A stretch of DNA of 41,740 nt from Calidithermus chliarophilus DSM 9957. Lineage in GTDB: Bacteria; Deinococcota; Deinococci; Deinococcales; Thermaceae. Made by a program: the position numbers and the translations under genes. The notes beneath the pieces are model-generated. The model saw nothing but the letters and a program-made list of their open reading frames with translations, ran no database searches and had not been told where the DNA came from. The stretch is taken from assembly GCF_000430045.1 (NCBI RefSeq), contig NZ_KE387023.1, positions 2,967,341 through 3,009,080 on the forward strand, read 5' to 3'. Positions 19,380 through 21,591 of the stretch are shown here, piece by piece (position 1 is the first letter of the stretch; each line of letters begins with the position of its first letter).

Positions 19380-20348
<969 letters not shown>

Positions 20349-20370
20349 CTATCTGGGTCCTACGTCTTGT

Positions 20371-20473
20371 GCCGTACGTCCTACGCAGAAGACCAAAGAC
20401 ACTGAGCACAACGCCGAGCGGAGGGTGTTCGGTGCCTGGGGCGCTTTCAGGTGTAAGACGTACGACGTACGGC
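20371..20473. repeat. Inverted-repeat element between speD-like gene and speE
   Basis: Two 15-nt arms match in inverted orientation at 14 of 15 positions (GCCGTACGTCCTACG at 20371-20385; reverse complement at 20459-20473) and bracket about 73 bp. The arms share the TACGACGTACG words seen in the heptameric arrays, so this may be a small non-autonomous mobile element or a relic of one. No target duplication is evident. Confidence 0.5.
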
Positions 20474-20475
20474 CT

Positions 20476-20877
20476 TCATTGCGGCTTCATGGCCCGGCGG
20501 CGGATGTCGTGGCCTTCGGTGGTGCGCCACAGGCGGAACGCCGACTCCTCGCGGGCGCCGAAGGCCCGGGCCAGGCCGCGCAGCACGCTGTCAGGCTCGA
20601 CGTCGGGCTGGTAGAAGTAGAGGTCGAGCGCGGCCGAGGCGTCGTCCTCGGGCCAGGTGTGGATCATCACCGCGCCGACCGGGCTGACGACGGCCGCCGA
20701 GAGCCCTTGGGGGTAGAACTTGTACACCACGCTCTGCACGCTGGCCACCGGCGCGCCGAGTTTGATGACCGCGTCCTTGAGCGCGGTCTCGACCAGGCGC
20801 GGGTTTTCCAGCACGTCGAGGTTGCAGCCGTAGATCTCGGCTACCCAGCGGCCACCGGAAACAGCCATATCTGCCAC
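20476..20877 (-). CDS. SpeD-family (S-adenosylmethionine decarboxylase-like) protein lacking the pyruvoyl-forming serine
   Basis: A 133-residue protein aligning without gaps to class 1b AdoMet decarboxylase around FYPQGLSAAVVSPVGAVMIHTWPE. In active enzymes the sequence before IHTWPE is ESHLT; the Ser cleaved to form the pyruvoyl cofactor is Gly here, and the following His is Ala. The catalytic Cys of DLFTCG is Tyr (DLYFYQ). The processing His in IHTWPE and the Ser of GLSA remain. By these changes it should neither self-process nor decarboxylate. It sits upstream of speE. It could be a regulatory or structural partner of an active SpeD elsewhere. GTG 20877 has TACGAT 8 nt upstream; ATG 20868 is an alternative. 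Confidence 0.85.
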   Translation of the reverse strand: MADMAVSGGRWVAEIYGCNLDVLENPRLVETALKDAVIKLGAPVASVQSVVYKFYPQGLSAAVVSPVGAVMIHTWPEDDASAALDLYFYQPDVEPDSVLRGLARAFGAREESAFRLWRTTEGHDIRRRAMKPQ

Positions 20878-20940: not shown

Positions 20941-21591
20941 TCAGGCCCGCCCGGGCGCCGCGGGGTTGCGGAGCAGGTGCAGCAGGACCGCCGTGGCGAG
21001 CAGGCTGCTCAGGGCCATCAGCCCGCTCAGCGGGTCGAGCGGGGCGGCTTCGCCCCACAGCACGCCCAGGCTGCTGGGCAGGGGGAGCCCGGTGAGGCGG
21101 GTCATGAGGAAGACCATCAGGATCACGAAATTGAGGCCGATCCCGGCCGTGTAGAGGCTGCGCTTGAGCTGCTCGAGCCGCGAGCCGCTAACCCCCGAAC
21201 TGAGCCGCGAGCCGCTAACCCCCGAACTGAGCCGCGAACCGCTACCCCCCAGACTGAGCCGCGAGCCGCTACCCCCCATGTCGAGCGGCGAACCCCTGCC
21301 CGCGGTCTGGGGCGAGGCGGGCTCCAGGCGGGCGTACTCGATCGCCCCCTCCTCGTCCGGCAGGTTGAGGAGGACGAGCATCAAGAAGGCGTAGGCCACC
21401 TGCAGCGCCAGCCCGCCGATGAGCAGTTGGGAGTACCAGACCTGCGCCGAGAACACGTCGAGGTATCCGCCGCTCAGGGCCCCGCACCACCCGCCGCCCA
21501 GCGGCGTGCGCACCCAGCCCAGCAGTTGCAGGGCGAAGGGCAGCAGCGAGAGCCCCACCACCGCGTACTGGGCTACCGATCGCCTCTCCAT
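20941..21591 (-). CDS. Four-helix membrane protein with 9-residue tandem repeats in its loop
   Basis: A 216-residue protein of unknown family. Helices are at about 8-27 (AVVGLSLLPFALQLLGWV), 52-77 (SQLLIGGLALQVAYAFLMLVLLNL), 147-165 (GIGLNFVILMVFLMTRL) and 188-206 (LMALSSLLATAVLLHLL). The loop between helices 2 and 3 contains four perfect-length repeats of (S/D)(S/L/M)G(V/G)SGSRL, encoded by a 4 x 27-bp tandem repeat. The gene starts at ATG 21591, with CACAAT ending 7 nt upstream and no ribosome-binding site. It follows the nitrilase-family gene on the same strand by 49 nt and precedes the speD-like gene. The role is unknown. Confidence 0.75.
   Translation of the reverse strand: MERRSVAQYAVVGLSLLPFALQLLGWVRTPLGGGWCGALSGGYLDVFSAQVWYSQLLIGGLALQVAYAFLMLVLLNLPDEEGAIEYARLEPASPQTAGRGSPLDMGGSGSRLSLGGSGSRLSSGVSGSRLSSGVSGSRLEQLKRSLYTAGIGLNFVILMVFLMTRLTGLPLPSSLGVLWGEAAPLDPLSGLMALSSLLATAVLLHLLRNPAAPGRA
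21175..21282. repeat. 4 x 27-bp tandem repeat inside a coding sequence
   Basis: Exactly 108 bp form four 27-bp units, in frame, encoding SGSRL-containing nonapeptides. The two units nearest 21175 are nearly identical; the others differ by a few bases, mainly TAACCCCCG versus TACCCCCCA. Each unit can also be cut as 7+7+7+6, which hints at an origin from the heptameric words seen in intergenic arrays, though this is speculative. Confidence 0.85.

Follow-up and report, generated by a model that had tools for sequence, protein, structure and literature searches.

A speE-linked SpeD homologue without its pyruvoyl serine in Calidithermus chliarophilus, a candidate non-cleaving subunit of a heteromeric AdoMet decarboxylase

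Fused and degenerate AdoMet decarboxylases

Eukaryotic class 2 AdoMet decarboxylases (AdoMetDCs) are built from two fused SpeD-like halves, of which only the N-terminal one makes the pyruvoyl group (PMC10407285, PMC5201418), and in the Trypanosoma brucei enzyme three residues of the C-terminal, scaffolding sheet (Y243, S249 and E266) touch a ligand that sits over the pyruvoyl carried by the opposing sheet (PMC5201418). His68 (residues are numbered S55, S63, H68, C83 etc. as in T. maritima SpeD, unless assigned to another protein) is essential for both self-processing and catalysis (PMC10407285). A chain in Victivallis vadensis that fuses an active SpeD1 with a degraded SpeD2 has been put forward as a model of class 2 evolution (Li et al. 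2023, PMC10407285). Fused active and degraded SpeD units, the class 2 enzyme and the trypanosomatid prozyme are already published; our search of the open-access literature found no description of a Thermales SpeD subunit that lacks the Ser and is encoded separately, nor of reciprocal residue loss. Thermus thermophilus deleted for speD1 makes no long polyamines, and the formation of N1-aminopropylagmatine depends on SpeD1 (PMC6418473). The protein, TTC0473, is listed as 'S-adenosylmethionine decarboxylase-like protein 1' and neighbours SpeE, TTC0472 (PMC4021367), and a further protein, TtSpeD2, has been named as the SAMDC (PMC10981699). In the open-access literature on T. thermophilus SpeD1, we found no mention of a missing pyruvoyl Ser or of a half-site.

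The gene described here lies in a 41,740-nucleotide stretch of the Calidithermus chliarophilus DSM 9957 genome (the window) and resembles each of these systems in part. With the C-terminal half of class 2 AdoMetDCs it shares the motifs F-x-P-x-G-x-S and H-x-x-P-E and the lack of both cleavage Ser and catalytic Cys, but that half is fused to the pyruvoyl half, with almost no sequence homology, whereas the window protein comes from a separate, unlinked gene. The V. vadensis fusion likewise combines an active SpeD with a degraded unit; there, however, both reside in one chain and the degraded part is of the ornithine-decarboxylase type, while here the genes are separate and the degraded one is a T. 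maritima-like SpeD. The trypanosomatid prozyme is also a catalytically dead AdoMetDC paralogue with an active partner, but it is a dead whole class 2 enzyme that acts allosterically (PMC5201418), and the window protein is one class 1b unit. In animal spermine synthase, a dead class 1b SpeD unit is tied to an aminopropyltransferase, although this N-terminal domain, unlike the window protein, is fused and structural (PMC12803844). T. maritima SpeD, itself of class 1b, has the same fold and differs by Ser63, Cys83 and activity on its own. T. thermophilus SpeD1 is alike in its speE neighbour, in the presence of a second SpeD elsewhere and in the N1-aminopropylagmatine requirement (PMC6418473, PMC4021367).

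A SpeD unit with a putative half of an active site

The gene occupies positions 20476-20877 of the minus strand as an intact open reading frame of 133 amino acids, counted from a GTG at 20877; comparison with relatives favours the ATG at 20868 as the start. The product matches Pfam AdoMet_dc (PF02675) with 75 bits (6e-21) and the NCBIfam decarboxylase equivalog TIGR03330 with 55.1 bits, below the curated cut-off of 75.65. Aligned to T. maritima SpeD, the stretch from S55 to H68 is free of gaps, and Val67-Gly68-Ala69 (20671-20679, minus strand) stands in place of Glu62-Ser63-His64, so that the pyruvoyl cleavage site is gone; Tyr89 (20611-20613, minus strand) replaces the catalytic Cys83. The original prediction, a SpeD homologue beside speE whose Ser-His pair had become Gly-Ala and whose Cys had become Tyr, in an ungapped alignment around IHTWPE, thus describes the window protein correctly, although its list of lost residues, right for Ser, His and Cys, overlooked Glu62. 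It had also named another Ser at the cleavage site, in a structure-based alignment, as refuting. In the alignment to T. maritima SpeD, the window protein has no such residue: the nearest, S65, aligns with I60. S65 is invariant in Thermales Ser-less proteins but not in the deltaproteobacterial relatives described below, and we rejected it as an alternative cleavage Ser because it lies off the site in a gap-free alignment.

Two motifs are retained. F-x-P-x-G-x-S (20698-20718, minus strand) extends from Phe54 to Ser60, equivalent to F49 to S55 in T. maritima and F223 to S229 in human AdoMetDC, and H-T-W-P-E (20647-20661, minus strand) from His73 to Glu77, equivalent to H68 to E72 and H243 to E247, respectively. 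In the human C-terminal half, the corresponding sequences read F223-x-P225-x-G227-x-S229 and H243-x-x-P246-E247 (positions verified in PDB 1jl0), to which T. brucei Y243, S249 and E266 are equivalent. The window protein keeps this complete residue set and lacks what the pyruvoyl half contributes, Ser and Cys. In human and T. maritima AdoMetDCs, F49 stacks on the adenine, S55 and H68 act in processing and catalysis, and E72 binds the ribose; by homology with class 2 and from earlier work, class 1b dimers should receive these trans-side residues from the opposite protomer. The window protein displays what is expected of a pyruvoyl-free AdoMetDC half, namely F/Y-x-P-x-G-x-S and H-x-x-P-E with neither Ser nor Cys, and a Ser- and Cys-bearing half occurs in the same genome. 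The combination typical of SpeDA or SpeDC (ADC or ODC), pyruvoyl Ser with His68 and Cys83, is broken by the absence of Ser and Cys.

An AF2 model (pLDDT 85) predicts an intact fold, as had been claimed, with T. maritima SpeD (1tmi; about 34-35% identity) as the closest PDB structure and human spermine synthase also among the fold matches. At about 130 residues, the protein amounts to one class 1b unit, and no regulatory domain is attached to it. The frame is open throughout, in keeping with the earlier reading that no frameshift is present, and we rejected pseudogene decay in view of this and of the strict conservation across 42 distinct sequences. Activity without a pyruvoyl group was likewise rejected as unsupported.

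The aminopropyltransferase gene speE (19380-20327, minus strand) follows directly downstream on the same strand. The gap between the two genes measures 148 bp in the window (20328-20475), only 2-12 bp in Thermus, and is longer in Meiothermus and Calidithermus. It contains a 15-nt inverted repeat; we considered the gap as a repeat element and rejected this, given that it is single-copy in the genome and its inverted repeats are weak. A promoter scan gave nothing above chance, and tblastn against plasmids matched only distant ordinary SpeDs.

In the 4.69-Mb genome, whose nearest named relative in our comparison is Calidithermus roseus, there is only one other AdoMet_dc match (G000:C3:2543598-2543933), unlinked, at a distance of about 0.44 Mb on the same contig. 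This second SpeD has Glu-Ser-His and Cys intact, so that the active-looking copy that the original prediction had proposed to look for does exist. By eye, the open reading frames adjoining it resemble membrane subunits of succinate dehydrogenase. We refer to such Ser-bearing copies as GFG-type, after their N-terminal GFGPHL.

Conservation and reciprocal residue loss in two phyla

Of 111 genomes surveyed across the class, nearly all of those in the window's family contained two SpeD matches. Seventy loci, including those of named Thermus, Meiothermus and Calidithermus species and some repeat reads of one genome, yielded 42 Ser-less sequences, all distinct. Glu62, Ser63 and Cys83 are lost in every one of them, being replaced by Val (42), by Ala (39) or Gly (3), and by Tyr (41) or Phe (1); the Gly-Ala of the window protein is therefore Ala-Ala in most relatives. 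F49, P51, G53, S55, H68, W70, P71 and E72, the full trans-side set, are invariant in all 42, as is D79, and a same-strand speE lies beside the Ser-less gene at all 70 loci. The Ser-less form does not represent decay: Ser63 and Cys83 are missing from every sequence, and these eight residues and the speE linkage persist throughout.

The Ser-less and Ser-bearing genes occur as a pair in nearly all Thermaceae and in several other Thermales, and where the Ser-less copy was found alone (G064), genomes were incomplete. In two Meiothermus-like genomes, G027 (100% complete) and G041 (92%), both SpeDs and speE are missing together and SpeA is kept; a PLP-type SpeA is present in most pair-carrying Thermales genomes searched, with G016 as an exception. 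Elsewhere in the survey, Deinococcus-side and g13 genomes (L058, L060, L062-L070) carry SpeD-like genes without Cys83 and with no speE nearby. In genus g13 (L071, L124-L128), the two-SpeD arrangement gives way to another AdoMet_dc match next to a divergent SpeE (about 41% identity).

The Ser-bearing partners show the mirror pattern. Glu62, Ser63, His64 and Cys83 are invariant in all 32 distinct Thermales sequences, none of which contains F-x-P-x-G-x-[ST], and W70 is Phe. Glu72 is found in just five of them, the others having Lys (21), Ser (3), Gln, Arg or His (1 each), with the non-Glu forms spread over several clades of the tree. The 51 ordinary SpeDs used for comparison were taken from high-scoring matches, a choice that biases this set towards conservation. 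We give no weight to the accompanying Fisher value, which takes no account of relatedness and counts three misassigned sequences. In one genome from the order (G004, LSA4.bin17; L290), the Ser-bearing copy carries both H68Q and E72K, and its Ser-less counterpart keeps His68 and Glu72. The Ser-bearing copy of the window genome retains H68 and E72 and could work alone as a homodimer. G003, another member of this order with neither a Ser-less copy nor speE, carries a GFG-type SpeD with Val for Cys83 (L289).

Similar pairs exist in a second phylum, that of one deltaproteobacterial MAG, for which 148 genomes were covered. Eight of these (G147, G148, G184, G185, G219, G220, G247, G248) combine a GFG-type SpeD with a second, trans-type copy that keeps all trans-side residues and has lost Glu62 and Cys83, as well as Ser63 in six of the eight. 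In seven of the eight genomes, the trans-type gene overlaps the estimated speE start by 7-10 bp; E72 is kept in the GFG-type copy of seven of the eight pairs. In a joint alignment, the invariant columns are essentially the trans-side set. Two further genomes (G193, G226) have a GFG-type copy without H68, W70, P71 and E72 and another copy that keeps all four, with Ser in place of Cys83. A SpeE match is present in the paired genomes, and none was detected in G136, G158, G194, G210, G227, G239 and G256, where the GFG-type copy occurs alone or has no trans-type partner. In a quick tree, Ser-less proteins from both phyla lie near each other within the T. maritima-like side, with weak support (0.70), and the GFG-type copies group with the ODC-type SpeDC clade; we do not claim a single origin. 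Two genomes of this phylum (L251, L277) also encode a SpeD-like protein in which Ser63 is Gly, His68 is Ala and Cys83 is Tyr, with Phe49 (or Tyr), Ser55 and Glu72 retained.

A candidate non-cleaving subunit and its alternatives

The retention of F49, S55, H68 and E72 suggests that the window protein completes an active site in the manner of the class 2 C-terminal half. From the sequence, its conservation, the reciprocal residue loss, the gene linkage and the co-loss, we infer a physical pairing and catalysis across subunits: judged on sequence, the window protein would belong to a heteromeric class 1b AdoMetDC as the subunit that never cleaves and that provides one half of the active site in trans, a reading to which we assign a probability of about 0.56. 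Its partner would be the unlinked Ser-bearing, GFGPHL-type SpeD (SpeD2 in T. thermophilus), which would cleave itself and bear the catalytic Cys together with the pyruvoyl group; the window protein would contribute F49, S55, H68 and E72 to the opposite face of this site, its own site being degenerate, and the decarboxylated AdoMet produced would pass to the SpeE encoded in the same operon. More generally, it is an even bet that at least two bacterial phyla have an AdoMetDC for which two genes are obligatory, with a pyruvoyl-making subunit and a non-cleaving one that lends the substrate-binding and processing face, an unfused parallel to the asymmetric eukaryotic enzyme in which the half-sites have been lost reciprocally. 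In the boldest form of this proposal, the non-cleaving subunit would set the substrate and turn a GFG-type homodimer acting on another amino acid into an AdoMet decarboxylase.

The original prediction envisaged a dead paralogue serving as a prozyme-like partner. A role as a partner is indeed what the conservation of a dead AdoMetDC paralogue argues for, but the exact analogy fits less well. If the Ser-bearing SpeD had its own homodimeric site, and the window protein bound and activated it without lending catalytic residues, this would agree with the retention of a dead paralogue beside an active-looking copy in the same genomes, with H68 and E72 in the Ser-bearing copy of the window genome, and with the trypanosomatid precedent; since it would leave unexplained both the invariant S55, H68, F49 and E72 of the dead copy and the loss of E72, and once of H68, from the active one, we regard such allosteric activation as unlikely, if the strongest of the alternatives.

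Somewhat less probable still is a structural or channelling partner of SpeE, an unfused counterpart of the dead SpeD domain that animal spermine synthase carries N-terminally and that human SpmSyn requires for dimer formation (PMC12803844). The same-strand adjacency at 70 of 70 loci and the spermine synthase fold match point in this direction; bona fide speD genes also neighbour speE, however, which makes the linkage unspecific, a structural role needs no invariant H68, S55 and E72, and T. thermophilus SpeE produced Spm/Tspm in E. coli without SpeD1 (PMC11107197). A Ser-less homodimer that senses AdoMet, dcAdoMet or a polyamine and regulates polyamine synthesis would account for the ligand-binding F49 and E72, but H68 and S55 are residues of processing and catalysis rather than binding and no regulatory domain is attached, making this improbable. 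Equally improbable is that the partner copy is an arginine decarboxylase, with dcAdoMet coming from another source and the window gene a relic, as might be read from the ODC-like placement of GFG-type copies and the lone GFG-type genomes without SpeE, given the PLP-type SpeA in most searched Thermales genomes with the pair (G016 excepted), the lack of any further SpeD in the window genome, the eight invariant residues, which a relic would not retain, and the assignment of T. thermophilus SpeD2 as SAMDC (PMC10981699).

The reading as a non-cleaving subunit bears on T. thermophilus, whose SpeD1 is probably the orthologue of the Ser-less window gene, as judged from locus tags and relatives: in every genome read from other Thermus species, the Ser-less copy is the one beside speE, and SpeD1 should therefore be the Ser-less protein. 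With 2-12 bp between the Thermus gene and speE, disrupting speD1 could have a polar effect on speE, and a phenotype arising in this way is a live alternative. If the proposal is true, it would explain why polyamine synthesis in Thermus needs a 'SAM decarboxylase-like' protein despite another SpeD, and would offer an unfused, present-day case of the asymmetric state from which eukaryotic AdoMetDC has been proposed to originate. The pair is a clear test case for cross-subunit complementation, and it calls for caution in annotation, where a speD beside speE may not be a decarboxylase by itself.

Elsewhere in the window, an open reading frame on the minus strand (20941-21591), whose product has no Pfam match, contains four tandem copies of a 27-nt unit (21175-21309) that encode a repeated Ser-Gly-Ser-Arg-Leu segment.
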